Assembly (NCBI RefSeq): GCF_007858975.2
Contig: NZ_CP042220.2
Coordinates: forward strand, 1,550,001-1,614,000
Origin: Dickeya poaceiphila
GTDB taxonomy: Bacteria > Pseudomonadota > Gammaproteobacteria > Enterobacterales > Enterobacteriaceae
Direction of reading: 5' to 3'
DNA: 64,000 nt
The notes beneath the pieces are model-generated. The model was not told the DNA's origin. It did not search any database and worked only from the letters and a program-made list of their open reading frames with translations. The first letter of the stretch is position 1, and the number at the start of each line of letters is the position of its first letter. Of this stretch, positions 3,381 through 8,733 are shown piece after piece. The translations under genes and the position numbers were made by a program.

Positions 3381-3593
3381 TTATATTTCACTGCTGGCAA
3401 TGGCATCGCGCAGCATAGCAACGAGATTCACCTCTACTTTCTCGTTTGCTTTTTCTTTTGGCCGGATAATGATTTTTCCGCTTTTTACCATGCCCCGACA
3501 AGTTTCAAAGGGGATACCCGTTAATTCTGAGTATTTCCTGAGAGAAACATACGGCGTCGGGACATTGATATTGATGGTTAATCCTTTACTCAT
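3381..3593 (-). CDS. cox: Cox-like excisionase/transcription regulator
   Basis: A 70-residue protein with a winged-helix-like core: SLRKYSELTGIPFETCRGMVKSGKIIIRPK, then a basic strand and AMLRDAIASSEI. This is how P2-type Cox looks: a recognition helix after a TG(I/K) turn and a short wing. In P2-like phages Cox represses the lysogeny promoter and directs the integrase to excise. It is the second gene of the leftward early operon, close to the repressor, as expected. It could also act as a CII-like regulator. Confidence 0.7.
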   Translation of the reverse strand: MSKGLTININVPTPYVSLRKYSELTGIPFETCRGMVKSGKIIIRPKEKANEKVEVNLVAMLRDAIASSEI

Positions 3594-3598
3594 ATCGC

Positions 3599-3793
3599 CT
3601 ATCCTTCAGCGTTAAACGACTCCAGCCCCCGGAGAAAAACCAGTCTCGCCATGCTGGAGAGGGAACGGCTTTCTTTTTCAGCCAACGCGGCCAGCCTGGC
3701 GCGTTCATCTTCGGAAAGCCTCATGGGAGTAGGGTTGCGCGATGCAATCCCCCGCGGTAAACGCGACCGCTGATCATGATTTTCTTGTGTCAT
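3599..3793 (-). CDS. Ribbon-helix-helix-type small DNA-binding protein
   Basis: A 64-residue protein. After a polar N-terminus, PTPMRLSEDERARLAALAEKE followed by RSLSSMARLVFLRGLE matches the strand-helix-helix arrangement of Arc/MetJ-type (RHH) repressors. It is the first gene of the leftward early operon and stands divergent to the repressor, 60 bases away, so it could bind the shared operator region. The RHH fold is inferred from pattern; the target is unknown. Confidence 0.6.
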   Translation of the reverse strand: MTQENHDQRSRLPRGIASRNPTPMRLSEDERARLAALAEKESRSLSSMARLVFLRGLESFNAEG

Positions 3794-3853
3794 AATGGTA
3801 TGTTGTGATCCACTAAGTTCCTGTTCAACACAATCTAGTGAAGAAAACTTCCT
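3794..3853. promoter_or_regulatory. Divergent early/lysogeny control region
   Basis: Sixty bases separate the leftward early operon from the rightward repressor. The stretch repeats short TTGTG half-sites (also just inside the RHH start, near 3786 and 3803) and an oppositely oriented CACAA near 3830, plus CACTA and TAGTG, so it looks like an operator with several half-sites. In P2-like phages this is where the repressor and Cox act. No promoter box is assigned with confidence. Confidence 0.45.
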
Positions 3854-4270
3854 ATGTCAACATCGAAAGAGGAATTTTTATTCCTTATTGGAGAGCGTTT
3901 GCGCGAAGAGCGGGAAACGATTGGTAAAAGTCAAAGTGCGATTGCCGAAGAGCTAGGCACGACAACAAGGACTTGGGGCAAGTATGAGAGAGGGGAAACC
4001 GCTCCAGACGGAGTGACTCTAGCTCTTCTCAGTGCTCGGTATGGTATGGATGTTTCGTATATTCTTACCGGAAAGCGGACGCCTGATCTCGGTGACATAT
4101 CTAACGATGAATTAGAACTGATAAAAATTTATCGTGTTGCGCCGTTGGCGGTTAAAGCCGCTGCACTGGCCGCATTAACGGCAGGCAGTTCCGCATCAGC
4201 AGGATCAATAAACATAACCGGTAGCGGCCAGCGTGTTGCTGGCAGGGACTATCACGAAAACAAAAAATAA
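3854..4270 (+). CDS. Prophage repressor (HTH_3/Xre type) with VAGRD-motif tail
   Basis: A 138-residue protein. Residues about 11-66 form an Xre-type helix-turn-helix (GERLREERETIGKSQSAIAE, then ELGTTTRTWGKYERGETAPD), with YILTGKR closing the domain. There is no peptidase domain, so it is not a LexA/lambda-CI type that cleaves itself after DNA damage. An alanine-rich helix (VKAAALAALTAG) leads to a short tail, NITGSGQRVAGRDYHENKK, whose VAGRDYHE (residues 128-135) nearly repeats in the next protein. It heads the rightward operon running to the integrase, facing the early operon, as a lysogeny repressor should. Confidence 0.82.
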   Translation: MSTSKEEFLFLIGERLREERETIGKSQSAIAEELGTTTRTWGKYERGETAPDGVTLALLSARYGMDVSYILTGKRTPDLGDISNDELELIKIYRVAPLAVKAAALAALTAGSSASAGSINITGSGQRVAGRDYHENKK

Positions 4271-4285
4271 GGGAACGCTCCAGGA

Positions 4286-4897
4286 ATGAGTGTTGAATCT
4301 CATGGAAATGAAAACCGGGTAGCCGGGCGGGATTTTTACGAAAGCAGCATCACGGTCGATAAGATCAATATCGCCATTCCGGCGGCCAATGAAGAAAAAC
4401 GCCCACTGGTTCCCGCGCAGCGTAAGCAGTTAAACCAACTGGTAAAAGAAATTGCTGACGGCGGCTATGAAGAGGGGTTTTCAGTGTGGCAGCGCGTTCA
4501 CGCTGAAATTGGCGTCAAAAGCATTGAGGATATGACGGTCAACCAGTATCAAACGGCGGTCAGTTATCTTCAGGCGTTGCGCGACAGATATCGGGAAAAA
4601 GATGCCAGTAATGCGCTGGTGCATCTGCTGTTGAAGAACACTCAGCAGGTAGAACAGCGGCAGCAATTAATTCATTACTGCCATATTCATTTCGGTACTG
4701 GACGATTAACTGAACTGACCCGATCGCAGCTCCAGCAGGCGCTTTCATGGTTGGATGATCGTCAGTGTTCGGCCGTTCCCGGTCAAACCACGCCTAATAC
4801 TCGCCAGAGCTGGCAAGATGTACTTAAAGCAGAACCATTGATTTTCAGTGCAGTGTTTACTGCTGGAATAATTATGGGCGCTATTTTTTTTCGTTAG
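4286..4897 (+). CDS. Tail-anchored membrane protein with VAGRD motif, unknown
   Basis: A 203-residue protein, 15 bases after the repressor and on the same strand. Residues 7-19 (GNENRVAGRDFYE) echo the repressor's C-terminal tail. The middle (about 40-170) is helical and polar with no motif I recognise. The last 20 residues, PLIFSAVFTAGIIMGAIFFR, are one hydrophobic segment, so the protein is probably anchored by its C-terminus with the bulk in the cytoplasm. The shared motif suggests that repressor and membrane protein touch each other; that is inference. Function unknown. Confidence 0.72.
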   Translation: MSVESHGNENRVAGRDFYESSITVDKINIAIPAANEEKRPLVPAQRKQLNQLVKEIADGGYEEGFSVWQRVHAEIGVKSIEDMTVNQYQTAVSYLQALRDRYREKDASNALVHLLLKNTQQVEQRQQLIHYCHIHFGTGRLTELTRSQLQQALSWLDDRQCSAVPGQTTPNTRQSWQDVLKAEPLIFSAVFTAGIIMGAIFFR

Positions 4898-4976
4898 ACG
4901 TATCGATAAGTAACATAAAAAATATCTCAACTCTAAAGATAGATAAATCAAATAGCTATTTATAGAAGGGCTTTTT

Positions 4977-6155
4977 ATGACATTTGAAGAATGGATTTCA
5001 AAAAACGAGAAAGAAATATTCTTTACTTATATTAATGCTAATAATGAGGTGTCTAATAATTACGTTTCCGATGCAGTATATAAAGATAATTATCTTCAAG
5101 GGTATTGCATCAACAAGAAAGGTTTTAGAACCTTCAAACTTGAAAGAGTACTGGATGTTTACTCTTCAAATGAAGAAATGATTTCTGCCGCTAGTCCTTT
5201 AACTATCGCAGATCTCAAGATTGAAGATCGACGTGAGAAAAATACTCCTCGTGGTTTGGAGATTTGTTTTACAGGTTTTTCTAAAGAGATTAAAGATGAT
5301 CTAGAGTCACTCGCAGAAAAGAAAGGACTGTCAGTCAGAAAAGGGATTACAGCCAAATTATATTTCCTGTGTTGTGGCCCTAATGCTGGATGGAAGAAAA
5401 TAAAACAGGCAAATGAGAAAAACTGCTTTATTCTGTCCAAAGATCAATTCTTGTTATTTATTGACACAGGCGAGATTCCAATAGAATCGACAGAGGCTTA
5501 TGAATCTGACGAAAAAGATATACATGAAAAAATAGAAAATTTGCACAATGAAGTAACTTCAACATTTCGAACTATCAGAGAACCGCGCAGGAGCACAGCC
5601 CTTATTGCTCGTTTTGTTGATGGTTATGCCTCTGGTTGGCGCTTTGCAATAAGAGAATCCCACCGTGATGCACTAGATATAAAATTAACTAAATTTGTTT
5701 TTAATAAGCATCAATATGAGGATTGGACGCAAGGTAGTTCTTTTTCTTTCGGTAGAGGTGATGTCTTTTATAGTGATAAACTGGGTTATAGTGAGTGGAG
5801 TGAATTTTTAAAAATACCAGATGCTGTTGTACTACAAGTCAAATATGAGTGTTTTTCTGGTTATGATCCGGTTGCAACTATTGATGGTTTCTTTTCAGGT
5901 GATTTTATTCCATATCACCAACTAACGCCTAAAAAGTTAACCAACCTGCCAATCATGATAGAAAGTCAGAGTTATGATCCGGGCAAAATAACACTGGATA
6001 TATTCAAACCTAGTATTGATAGAAGTAAAATTGACCTGTTTGATACGATAAAAATAACTCAGGACGAACTTATCTCATTACTTCAGTCAGGCTACTACTG
6101 GAAGAAGGATGAAGGAAAAAAACCAGTGCGTGTAAATTTATTTGGTGGTAACTAG
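4977..6155 (+). CDS. WYL-like + BRCT domain protein, unknown (prophage accessory)
   Basis: A 392-residue protein, visibly AT-rich against its neighbours. Residues about 10-62 resemble a WYL domain (FFTYINANNEVSNNYV and GYCINKKGFRTFKLERVLDV). Residues 93-170 are BRCT-like: GLEICFTGFSKEIKDDLESL, a kinked middle, and NCFILSKDQFLLFIDTGEIP. The C-terminal 220 residues, starting near RRSTALIARFVDGYASGWRF, match nothing I know. WYL domains bind nucleic acids or ligands and BRCT domains bind DNA ends or phosphopeptides, so a DNA-related role is plausible but unproven. It sits between repressor and integrase, where P2-like prophages can carry lysogenic-conversion or defence genes. Confidence 0.78.
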   Translation: MTFEEWISKNEKEIFFTYINANNEVSNNYVSDAVYKDNYLQGYCINKKGFRTFKLERVLDVYSSNEEMISAASPLTIADLKIEDRREKNTPRGLEICFTGFSKEIKDDLESLAEKKGLSVRKGITAKLYFLCCGPNAGWKKIKQANEKNCFILSKDQFLLFIDTGEIPIESTEAYESDEKDIHEKIENLHNEVTSTFRTIREPRRSTALIARFVDGYASGWRFAIRESHRDALDIKLTKFVFNKHQYEDWTQGSSFSFGRGDVFYSDKLGYSEWSEFLKIPDAVVLQVKYECFSGYDPVATIDGFFSGDFIPYHQLTPKKLTNLPIMIESQSYDPGKITLDIFKPSIDRSKIDLFDTIKITQDELISLLQSGYYWKKDEGKKPVRVNLFGGN

Positions 6156-6253
6156 AAACATTTGCCAATATTGTTCTGAGTAAGTAATTTCCCGGTTGGG
6201 AATGTAGTTATAAGTTGACTTTGAAATTATAATTAATACCAAAGGAAAACCTC

Positions 6254-7138
6254 ATGGCAGATGAAAAACTAGATTTTTTTAACTATAAAAGGAATAAAGA
6301 TAAATTAATTATTAACCTTATCAATATCATTGAGGGCATAAACTGTGATGGTCATATAGATGAGAAAGAAGTTTTGTTTCTTGATACATGGATAAAAGAT
6401 GCTGATTTAATCAGCAAAAACTATTGTGTGCGGATGATTTCAAATAGACTTTCCGATATATTGTCTGATGGCGTTATTGAGCCGTATGAATTGAATTATT
6501 TGAAAGCTGATTTGATCAAGGTGCAAAAAGAGCTGTCTGATTTACCTGAGCTTGATTTGTACTCTGATGAAGCGGACAAGCATTTATTGGAAGGCCTATG
6601 TAAAGGAATGATGGCGAATCATGAGCTTAATGATTCAGAAATAAGATACTTAAATTGGTGGCTATCATCTAATGCTTCGCTCAAAGTTAATTACCCTGGA
6701 AAAGAGTTATACGCATTGGTTAACCGGATTCTTGCCGATGGGATCATTACATCAGAAGAACGTGATGAATTGAAAAAAGCGTTAATCGCTTTTACCGGAA
6801 GTGATGTCGATTCCGGTGTAGTGGATGGGCTGGCAACTCGCTTACCAGTGGATGATATAGAGAGCTTAGTTCTTTCCAATGCAACAGTTTGTCTGACAGG
6901 TGAATTCCTTTATGGAAAAAGATCAGTGTGTAAAAAACTGATTGAAGATGCAGGCGGGAAGGTGATTGATAATATAACAGCAAAACTTGATTTTCTTATT
7001 ATTGGTACATTGAGTTGTAAACATTGGAGATATCAGGCTCACGGTCGGAAAATCGAAAAAGCAATAGACTACCGGGATAATCGCGGCATTCCACTGAAAA
7101 TAATCAGTGAAGAACAATGGCAGAGCTTTACTGGATAA
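6254..7138 (+). CDS. Tandem TerB-like + BRCT domain protein, unknown (prophage accessory)
   Basis: A 294-residue acidic protein, AT-rich like the gene before it. Two similar helical units, about residues 15-95 (IIEGINCDGHIDEKEVLFLD) and 105-195 (MMANHELNDSEIRYLNWWLS, ILADGIITSEERDELKKAL), have the acidic look of TerB-type domains. Residues 208-290 are a clear BRCT: NATVCLTGEFLYGKRSVCKK, LIEDAGGKVIDNITAKLDFL, GRKIEKAIDYRD and SEEQW. Similar BRCTs occur in DNA ligase and exonuclease-like proteins. No nuclease motif is present. With the preceding gene it makes a two-gene BRCT module of unknown role, ending six bases before the integrase start. Confidence 0.8.
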   Translation: MADEKLDFFNYKRNKDKLIINLINIIEGINCDGHIDEKEVLFLDTWIKDADLISKNYCVRMISNRLSDILSDGVIEPYELNYLKADLIKVQKELSDLPELDLYSDEADKHLLEGLCKGMMANHELNDSEIRYLNWWLSSNASLKVNYPGKELYALVNRILADGIITSEERDELKKALIAFTGSDVDSGVVDGLATRLPVDDIESLVLSNATVCLTGEFLYGKRSVCKKLIEDAGGKVIDNITAKLDFLIIGTLSCKHWRYQAHGRKIEKAIDYRDNRGIPLKIISEEQWQSFTG

Positions 7139-7144
7139 TATTAT

Positions 7145-8152
7145 ATGGCTGTAAGCAAACTTCCGTCCGGCAAATGGCTTTGCCAATGCTTCCCCTATGG
7201 GCGCGATGGTCAGCGCGTTCGTAAACAATTTACTACCAGAGGTGAGGCACTCGCGTATGAGCGCCGCCTGATGGCGGATAAAAAAGGGATATCAACCGAA
7301 ACCAACAGCACAACGCTGCAAGACCTGATCCAGCGATGGTACGACATGCATGGCCAGACGCTGGAGTCAGGTGAAGACCGCTACGCTAAACTGATGGCAA
7401 TCTGTGTTCGGCTGGGTAATCCCTTTGCGGTAGACGTTGATAAAAATATGTTCGCTGTTTACCGCGAACGCCGGTTAAAAGGTGAATGGAACCCAAAAGG
7501 GAAGACGGCCATCAAAGAGGCCACAGTTAACCGCGAATATTCCTACCTGCGGGCGGTGTTCTCTGAGCTGAAGCGCATGGGGGAGTGGGAAAAAGAAAAC
7601 CCGCTGGATGGCATACGCCAGTTTAAGGAAGGCGATCAGGAACTGGCTTTTCTCTACCCGGATGAAATTAAGCGCCTGCTTGCTGCCTGCGATGAATCAG
7701 AGAATAAAGATCTCGGTATCATCGTTCGCTTGTGCCTGGCGACGGGGGCGCGTTGGGGCGAGGCCCAAACCCTGAAACAATCGCAAATCCTTCCCGGCAG
7801 GATTACATTCGTCAAAACCAAAGGAAAGAAAAACCGAACCATTCCTATTTCTGAAAGAATGCACGCCTTGTTGCCCAAGCGGCGCGGCCAACTCTTCAAA
7901 CCAGCGTATGAGGCATTTAAGCACGCCTTAAAGAAAGCGCACATTGAATTACCTGAGGGGCAGTTGACCCACGTTCTCAGGCACAGCTTTGCCAGCCACT
8001 TCATGATGCGCGGCGGCAATATTCTGGTGTTGCAGCAGATATTGGGCCATAGCTCTATCACTATGACCATGCGGTATGCGCATTTCGCGCCGGATCATCT
8101 GGATGCGGCGGTAACTCTCAACCCGTTTGATTCTTTAACCACAGATGAATAA
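7145..8152 (+). CDS. int: P2-type tyrosine-recombinase integrase
   Basis: A 335-residue integrase. The N-terminus (LPSGKWLCQCFPYGRDGQRV) is the arm-binding AP2-like part, followed by a SAM-like core-binding domain (about 60-165). Catalytic residues can be read directly: Arg203 in ATGARWGEA, the beta-hairpin lysine in VKTKGKKNRTIPI, His276 and Arg279 in THVLRHSF, His302 in LGHSSITM, and the nucleophile Tyr311 in MRYAHF. All are present, so it should be active. It closes the lysogeny operon and lies 127 bases from the tRNA-Leu att site, which it presumably uses. Confidence 0.93.
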   Translation: MAVSKLPSGKWLCQCFPYGRDGQRVRKQFTTRGEALAYERRLMADKKGISTETNSTTLQDLIQRWYDMHGQTLESGEDRYAKLMAICVRLGNPFAVDVDKNMFAVYRERRLKGEWNPKGKTAIKEATVNREYSYLRAVFSELKRMGEWEKENPLDGIRQFKEGDQELAFLYPDEIKRLLAACDESENKDLGIIVRLCLATGARWGEAQTLKQSQILPGRITFVKTKGKKNRTIPISERMHALLPKRRGQLFKPAYEAFKHALKKAHIELPEGQLTHVLRHSFASHFMMRGGNILVLQQILGHSSITMTMRYAHFAPDHLDAAVTLNPFDSLTTDE

Positions 8153-8279
8153 TCATGGGGCGCTGCCACGTTAAATCGATGGCAGCAGATTTCCGTATTA
8201 GCTCGCATTAACCTGAATTGAATACTGCTAACGTATTGAATTAACGTAACTCTATGATATAAAAAGCAGGCATTAACTT

Positions 8280-8334
8280 TTTAAAATCCCTCGGCGTTCG
8301 CGCTGTGCGGGTTCAAGTCCCGCTCTGGGCACCA
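8280..8334 (+). other. attR: Prophage att site: 3' half of tRNA-Leu(UAA)
   Basis: The 55 bases from the anticodon loop (TTTAAAA, with TAA at 8282-8284) to the terminal CCA match the 3' half of tRNA-Leu(UAA) as I know it from E. coli leuZ: anticodon stem TCCCT, the long variable arm CGGCGTTCGCGCTG, T-stem GCGGG/CCCGC and acceptor strand TCTGGGC. The bases before it do not form the 5' half, so this is not a whole tRNA. Tyrosine-integrase elements duplicate such a block at one end, so the intact gene should stand at the far end of the prophage, left of the window. Confidence 0.85.
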
Positions 8335-8379
8335 TGCGATAAGTGCTTGTGATATAAAGAAATAATTAAAATAACATGA

Positions 8380-8400
8380 CCGCCACGAGGCGGTTTTTTT
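8380..8400 (+). terminator. Rho-independent terminator after the tRNA-Leu fragment
   Basis: CCGCC, a four-base loop and GGCGG are followed by seven T. It is probably the original terminator of the host tRNA gene, left beside the att site after integration. Confidence 0.75.
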
Positions 8401-8733
8401 GTGTCTGGGCCATTCTTTAATAATGTTTTTTTCTGTATGAAATTTTTATAGTCAACGTTTATTTGTCATTTTGCATGATTACTGTGAAGCCAGTAAGGCG
8501 TTTCTACTGGTTCAGAAGATTGAGTGACGTCAGGGAAATCACGGTGTGTGATTGTATGAATATGGCAACGATCACTTCCATGAGTCCCTGAATAATAATG
8601 CCCACTGATGATGGAAATCCTGAAATCAAAAAATGTATTGAACTAAAGTAACGTGAGCGTGCTCCTCCTGCTTGATATTTTTGTCCAAAAACTGCTTGTC
8701 TTTATTCAGTAAGCTGGTCGAACAGATATCGTT
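8401..8733. other. Gap without a recognised gene
   Basis: About 330 AT-rich bases between the terminator and the end of Rz1. I see no credible coding frame with a ribosome-binding site, no tRNA and no strong hairpin. It may be host/prophage junction debris. Confidence 0.5.

Follow-up and report, generated by a model that had tools for sequence, protein, structure and literature searches.

What do two adjoining genes, lodged between the repressor and the integrase of a P2-like prophage, do for the phage or for the bacterium that carries it? The question arises in a 64,000-nucleotide stretch of Dickeya poaceiphila DNA (contig NZ_CP042220.2, positions 1,550,001 to 1,614,000; hereafter the window), where the right end of the prophage carries on its lysogeny (+) strand the genes for a repressor, P0003, P0001, P0002, and an integrase, in that order (Table 1). 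P0001 combines a WYL-like domain, a BRCT domain, and a C-terminal domain here termed WTQG, and P0002 combines two putative TerB-like helical units with a second BRCT domain. The reading that both are accessory cargo for exclusion and use their BRCTs to dock on DNA ends has about an even chance of being correct. Three features are shown by sequence, namely BRCTs of the RFC1 and DNA-ligase type with their binding pocket, position in the repressor-integrase slot, and the linkage of TerB-BRCT to WTQG in four arrangements; we infer that the proteins bind DNA, contact each other, and act against phages. P0001 and P0002 belong to a mix-and-match family and may aid the host in keeping out other viruses.

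Two phage genes in an intact-sized prophage

A first-pass annotation of this DNA had placed two genes of a P2-like prophage on the lysogeny strand between repressor and integrase, and both the element and the genes are borne out. Upstream DNA matches phage phiT5282H (75% identity over 45% of the stretch) in its P2-family genes for capsid, portal, and terminase. The element spans 34.1 kb, an intact size, and ends in direct repeats of at least 42 bp from the 3ʹ end of tRNA-Leu; the left copy, identical to the right, lies 34.1 kb upstream at genome positions 1524233-1524274, where tRNA-Leu terminates. The two open reading frames (ORFs) have exactly the annotated bounds. They are not chance ORFs, because both match phage families over almost their full length (phrog_36782, E 6e-75; phrog_3989, E 5e-99), families that PHROGs lists as of unknown function. 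The GC contents of P0001 (35%) and P0002 (36.5%), set against 48-52% in flanking genes, suggest acquired cargo. A scan of positions 3550-8500 gave a single + strand terminator, at position 8378, 3ʹ of the integrase, and one lysogeny transcript is therefore plausible.

BRCT domains with a putative 5ʹ-phosphate pocket

BRCT is a module known to grip DNA ends, and its annotation in both proteins is well founded. P0001 (23.2 bits) and P0002 (22.6 bits) exceed the PF00533 gathering score of 21.3, and Foldseek searches with both models retrieve the BRCTs of RFC1 and DNA ligase. The BRCTs of RFC1 and of NAD-dependent ligase (LigA) are among the nearest solved structures and sequences in Foldseek and profile searches; fission-yeast Rad4 outscores them in the profile search with P0002. 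The P0002 model is confident (mean predicted local distance difference test, pLDDT, 87; predicted template modelling score, pTM, 0.83) and places the BRCT behind two helical units; that of P0001 (mean pLDDT 54) is usable for its WYL-like and BRCT parts only.

The RFC1/LigA-type pocket is marked by conserved Thr, Arg, and Lys residues, which we take to be T415, R423, and K458 in human RFC1, and these are retained in both protein types. T215, G216, and R223 occur in all 69 P0002-type proteins aligned and K266 in 68, with one gap, down to about 30% identity in the most distant protein. This set includes orf2 of Vibrio phage K139, L148, L204, L226, L245 (L numbers denote surveyed loci), and a short Pseudomonas phage PG1 protein, and leaves out L207; L022, whose homologue has an internal stop, and two fragments, L025 and L026, were excluded from P0002 alignments. 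Among 94 P0001-type rows, T99 is found in 91, K or R at position 106 in 88, and K141 in 91; L013 is represented in P0001 alignments by its open stretch only. In the passages of PMC9293009 and PMC9293004 covered here, the basic DNA contacts of yeast Rfc1 are R174, Lys-208, and K209, and the isolated RFC1 BRCT favours 5ʹ-phosphate ends. The lysines of the phage AGPKK/AGWKK motifs align with the same yeast stretch and correspond, by alignment count, to Lys-208 and K209; for P0002 the assignment follows model helix 262-277, and the HMMER local alignment of that tail differs. The phage pocket residues are putative contacts for DNA 5ʹ-phosphates, and their conservation supports, short of proof, the DNA-end sensing proposed at first pass.

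The same likeness favours a rival explanation in which the proteins guide host ligase or repair enzymes to the phage's own cohesive ends or excision product, since the nearest BRCTs are those of NAD-ligase and RFC1 and some homologues are annotated as DNA ligase. However, no adenylation or other ligase domain was matched in P0001 or P0002, the genes lie on the lysogeny strand, and they are absent from most integrase loci surveyed, so that such a helper role is very unlikely. Identity as an NAD-dependent DNA ligase was rejected outright: LigA models match at their BRCT end only, without the adenylation and OB domains.

The WTQG domain and the other parts

The C-terminus of P0001, left in the first-pass annotation as 220 unmatched residues, indeed has no Pfam family, but it is a separate domain that recurs elsewhere. 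Named for its best-conserved motif, WTQG is found by profile search alone, fused to, or beside BRCT, SWIM, and WYL-like proteins. Besides the WYL-BRCT fusions, 17 WTQG loci were found. The partner is a BRCT protein in four (adjoining in L226, L242, and L257; fused in L245), a SWIM zinc-finger protein in seven (adjoining in L239, L240, L243, L244, L258, and L259; fused in L248), and a WYL-like protein in two (fused in L250; adjoining in L256); two have no partner (L251, L249), and two are cut by contig ends (L236, L241). All SWIM partners except that of L259 exceed the Pfam cut-off, and the WYL-like partners were recognised by eye (Pfam E 0.09 in L250; no hit in L256). A repressor of the seed set lies at most one gene from WTQG in 7 of the 17 loci (L241, L242, L243, L245, L250, L251, L256). 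The domain is rare: counting the Dickeya genome in each case, 4 of 369 genomes in the class carry it, as do 4 of 398 in the phylum. As a separate observation, WTQG is paired with a small SWIM zinc-finger protein on some contigs without a recognised repressor. An LDIK motif had suggested a PD-(D/E)xK-type nuclease; this was not adopted, as the Asp is absent in L248 and the Lys in L251.

The N-terminal domain of P0001 is called WYL-like only, because its score (18.1 bits) lies under the Pfam WYL (PF13280) cut-off of 21.8 and residues 38-40 read Asn-Tyr-Leu rather than Trp-Tyr-Leu. The first-pass assignment is accordingly kept as a tentative one, consistent with the PADLOC match and with five strands predicted in residues 13-62. 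P0001 is matched in 9 of 246 genomes of the bacterial family; the matches are full-length only in the Dickeya genome and in genome G162, and elsewhere are confined to the N-terminal 170 residues. Proteins with a WYL-like domain only and, by eye, hydrophobic N-terminal stretches (L318:4459-4998, L320:4459-4998, L041, L042, L044) are found either in this slot or in bacterial genomes.

For P0002, the TerB-like assignment is plausible. Residues 15-181 are modelled as all-helical at high confidence, and DUF533, a TerB-clan family, matches weakly (E 0.02). Pfam TerB itself does not match P0002, and no TerB protein appears in the 50 of 232 PDB Foldseek matches listed or in a profile search of PDB sequences. 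The two units proposed at first pass are helical in the model and may be TerB-like. K139 orf2 and P0002 are members of one large phage family; in the bacterial family P0002 is matched in 10 of 246 genomes, one of them through two broken fragments only.

Pairing, fusion, and exchange of parts

Neighbourhoods were compared in two surveys. For P0002, the 80 top-ranking of 158 confirmed viral loci were joined by 7 genome loci (87 loci, 60 distinct proteins); for WYL-BRCT proteins, the 80 top-ranking of 93 loci were joined by 11 more (91 loci, 87 distinct proteins). A first scan of genome contigs with a single-protein query gave no match, and a second gave 10 loci. Gene orders rest on ORFs of at least 60 amino acids (aa) and on similarity to a seed set, an approach that misses some repressors and small genes.

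TerB-BRCT proteins meet WTQG in four ways: in the clade of the window; in L148, where the order is reversed and the P0002-type protein is only 33% identical to P0002; in L226, beside a lone WTQG gene; and in L245, as a fusion. This is real but moderate evidence that TerB-BRCT and WTQG may act together. It also answers the co-occurrence check attached to the first-pass claim of a pair, in that components of the pair are joined elsewhere, in L148, L226, and L245. As a fixed pair of whole genes the claim holds less well: a WYL-BRCT neighbour accompanies only 4 of the 60 distinct P0002-type proteins, all in the clade of the window. Nor is the pair obligate, because relatives L005-L008 lack P0001 and L264 lacks P0002; in L005-L008, P0002 is 79% identical and the flanking DNA on either side aligns with the window.

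Such solitary genes favour the explanation that P0001 and P0002 are two independent cargo genes with separate functions, neighbours by chance. P0002-type genes also stand alone in L274 and L287, P0001-type alone in L264, and in the window 98 bp separate the two. Against this, 5 of 11 WTQG-bearing P0001-type proteins have a P0002-type neighbour, compared with 0 of 76 WTQG-lacking ones (Fisher p 1.3e-5, a value that is too small because four of the five are one clade). Moreover, the L245 fusion and the L226 adjacency join WTQG to TerB-BRCT, and a fusion in L204 joins a P0001-type BRCT to TerB-TerB-BRCT. Independence of the two genes is distinctly unlikely. Further fusions combine a P0001-type with a P0002-type BRCT (L207) or BRCT with a WYL-like domain plus one more, the latter recognised by eye (L269, L288).

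A slot shared with known defence systems

P0002-type proteins lie downstream of a co-oriented repressor in 40 of 60 cases, converge with the repressor in 17, and do neither in 3. WYL-BRCT proteins lie downstream of a repressor in 58 of 87 cases, upstream of an integrase only in 9, at the ogr/D end in 16, and elsewhere in 4. Either BRCT type therefore fills the same position in many phages. In L049-L052 and many of L101-L135, P0002-type genes converge with an S24-type repressor in apparently lambda-like phages. This is roughly the position where lambda carries rex.

The slot itself was surveyed from the integrase, in the best 80 of at least 595 loci (69 distinct integrases), a choice that leans to relatives of this integrase. 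Its contents differ among them, in keeping with the variable locus proposed at first pass: members of the present family in 16, other cargo in 22, no ORF of at least 80 aa on the same strand after the repressor in 27 (P0003-type genes not counted), and no repressor found in 4. Two of the 16 family members (L318, L320) match the WYL-like part only, without BRCT.

PADLOC matches 8 of 10 cargo proteins scanned from this survey, in 6 of 7 loci, and 5 of 10 from the BRCT surveys, the latter drawn from 48 ORFs (23 groups, one of which, at about 100 aa, may consist of repressors that went unrecognised). The types comprise PD-Lambda-1, bSEFIR, an AriA-AriB pair as in PARIS, Helicase-DUF2290, DzbA, and Abi_alpha-type proteins, with KAP and HipA-like candidates and weak TIR matches in addition; Pfam adds a NACHT protein. 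Slots with PD-Lambda-1, Helicase-DUF2290, AriA-AriB, bSEFIR, and Abi_alpha-type genes are exemplified by L292, L293, L298, L183, L194, and L005. Occupants without a match, for instance in L188, L196, and L300, may be undescribed defence genes. P0001 and P0002 thus sit in a turnover slot common to known defence systems, and it is from this position, and nothing further, that the anti-phage function proposed at first pass draws its support. The slot was already known, because a defence hotspot has been described between cI and int in K139-like phages of Vibrionaceae (Rousset et al. 2022, PMC9122126, in the parts covered). What is new is its use in relatives of an enterobacterial phage and the BRCT/WYL-like family as a frequent occupant.

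Because the genes usually stand beside the repressor, the strongest rival is lysogeny control, in which the proteins adjust the action of the repressor or the integrase, or else induction, for instance by sensing DNA damage, and other phages are not the target. The downstream and convergent positions given above favour it, as does a lone WTQG gene that adjoins the CI gene in L251. Yet the slot genes are dispensable, because 27 of 69 slots are without an ORF of at least 80 aa and 22 hold unrelated cargo; on the same survey, the label of core lysogeny gene was rejected. The low GC content likewise suggests acquired cargo, and 16 of 87 P0001-type genes lie at the ogr/D end instead. Lysogeny control is, on balance, rather unlikely.

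Relation to known systems

The closest counterpart of P0002 in a named phage is orf2 (kp3) of K139/kappa, annotated as a BRCT domain-containing protein (34.6% identity over 286 aa, pocket kept). It belongs to an operon, cI-orf2-glo-int, with an annotated lysogenic promoter PL, in which glo, annotated as phage exclusion, adjoins orf2. Unlike the window, K139 has no WYL-BRCT-WTQG gene alongside and carries glo in its place. In the passages of K139-family papers covered here, glo is treated as immunity- or virulence-associated and no function is given for orf2; those of PMC3986222 contain no mention of BRCT. The P0002 family could offer a starting point for the function of orf2.

The hotspot of Rousset et al. 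(PMC9122126) is the same repressor-integrase slot, with PARIS, Helicase-DUF2290, and other systems, but comes from Vibrionaceae, whereas the phage of the window matches enterobacterial phages; the main text of that paper contains no mention of BRCT. Makarova et al. (2014, PMC4012209) listed proteins that join WYL to BRCT or TerB domains, in passages that give no prophage location, gene pairing, or WTQG domain. The BRCTs of RFC1 and NAD-ligase are among the best structural and sequence matches and have pocket residues in common, but P0001 and P0002 lack AAA+ and ligase domains and have BRCT fused instead to TerB-like, WYL-like, and WTQG parts.

GAPS2 and PADLOC PDC-S48 show weak similarity confined to the BRCT region, with partial coverage. 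P0002 was rejected as GAPS2 (NCBIfam NF047932; 16.3 bits against a cut-off of 330), and membership in PDC-S48 was rejected because only model positions 322-405 (P0001) and 274-384 (P0002) of 411 are matched. Within the parts of the open-licence literature covered, no paper on this BRCT/TerB/WYL prophage system was found, so the first-pass statement that no system of this composition has been described holds there.

How the proteins might act

If P0001 and P0002 are exclusion cargo, they would be expressed together with the prophage repressor, as cargo of the repressor-integrase slot, and their most likely effect would be to shut out or hold back competing phages or plasmids. The BRCTs would dock on DNA ends that are recessed or carry a 5ʹ-phosphate, or on junctions, such as those of an invader genome that is linear or replicating. 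A scaffold role could fall to the TerB-like units, and the WYL-like domain could read a nucleotide or nucleic-acid ligand. WTQG, carried to the DNA end by the adaptor at hand, whether BRCT, WYL-like, or SWIM, would perform or relay the block.

A broader version, combinatorial prophage surveillance, is possible but doubtful. Here interchangeable binders of DNA ends or nucleic acids (an RFC1-type BRCT with TerB-like or WYL-like parts, a WYL-like domain alone, or a SWIM zinc finger) would recruit WTQG, as effector or relay, to invading DNA at its ends or junctions. If true, it would make BRCT-based DNA-end sensing a matter of bacterial immunity rather than repair. A prophage family that couples BRCTs to a domain outside Pfam, in a slot shared with known defence systems, is a concrete candidate for DNA-end-based immunity, and the analysis names its partners and residues.

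Several observations weigh against a defence role that begins at DNA ends. BRCT pockets may bind phosphopeptides rather than DNA. The pocket counts include close relatives and come without a control set of unrelated BRCTs, and in intact RFC, according to the passages covered, the BRCT grips DNA by another face, with no major role for the 5ʹ-phosphate. WTQG has no significant match in Pfam or the PDB and no recognised catalytic motif, and its part of the P0001 model is mostly below pLDDT 50 and unreliable. Linkage is also loose: 56 of 60 distinct P0002-type proteins are without a WYL-BRCT neighbour, WTQG lies at most two genes away in only 9 of 94 P0002-bearing loci (copies included), and the 17 convergent P0002-type genes of other phages lie outside the slot. 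As for defence, neighbouring defence genes do not prove a defence role. The PADLOC matches of P0001 and P0002 are weak and partial; the integrase-survey scan covered 7 of the 22 other-cargo loci, with proteins picked among the larger ones, and several proteins in the remaining 15 look small and secreted by eye. A functional test of this family was not found in the open-licence literature.

Other features of the lysogeny region

Table 1. Features at the right end of the prophage, in window positions
Feature	Position	Strand	Description
Repressor P0004	3854..4270	+	138 aa, helix-turn-helix (HTH); HTH_31 E 9.5e-10; first lysogeny-strand gene
P0003	4286..4897	+	203 aa; phrog_5825 E 4e-81; C-terminus hydrophobic (by eye)
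P0001	4977..6155	+	392 aa; WYL-like, BRCT, and WTQG domains; phrog_36782 E 6e-75
WYL-like domain, P0001 residues 12-66	5010..5174	+	Pfam WYL 18.1 bits; PADLOC WYL E 1.2e-4; five model strands
BRCT domain, P0001 residues 93-158	5253..5450	+	PF00533 23.2 bits; Foldseek RFC1 BRCT E 4.3e-5
WTQG domain, P0001 residues 190-392	5544..6152	+	From alignments; no Pfam family
P0002	6254..7138	+	294 aa; two helical units (putatively TerB-like) and BRCT; phrog_3989 E 5.5e-99
First TerB-like unit (putative), P0002 residues 15-95	6296..6538	+	Model; weak DUF533 match at 25-52
Second TerB-like unit (putative), P0002 residues 105-181	6566..6796	+	Model; conserved alignment columns
BRCT domain, P0002 residues 204-291 by model (Pfam 204-261)	6863..7126	+	PF00533 22.6 bits; pocket T215, R223, K266
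Tyrosine integrase P0005	7145..8152	+	phrog_1 E 4e-78; Pfam Phage_integrase
Right attachment site	8292..8333	+	Repeat (at least 42 bp) of tRNA-Leu 3ʹ end; genome positions 1558292-1558333

The middle of P0003 is Flk-like (E 9e-15, far under the cut-off of that model). Its N-terminus carries the same motif as the C-terminus of the repressor, RVAGRDYHENKK, which is conserved in relatives. Within window positions 4220-4342, the final residues of the repressor are GSGQRVAGRDYHENKK and the first residues of P0003 are MSVESHGNENRVAGRDFYE. The matched pair is retained in relatives despite otherwise differing repressors. In this it is like the motifs that receptor and effector share in amyloid-type signalling and, if signalling of that type takes place, would connect the phage repressor to a membrane protein.

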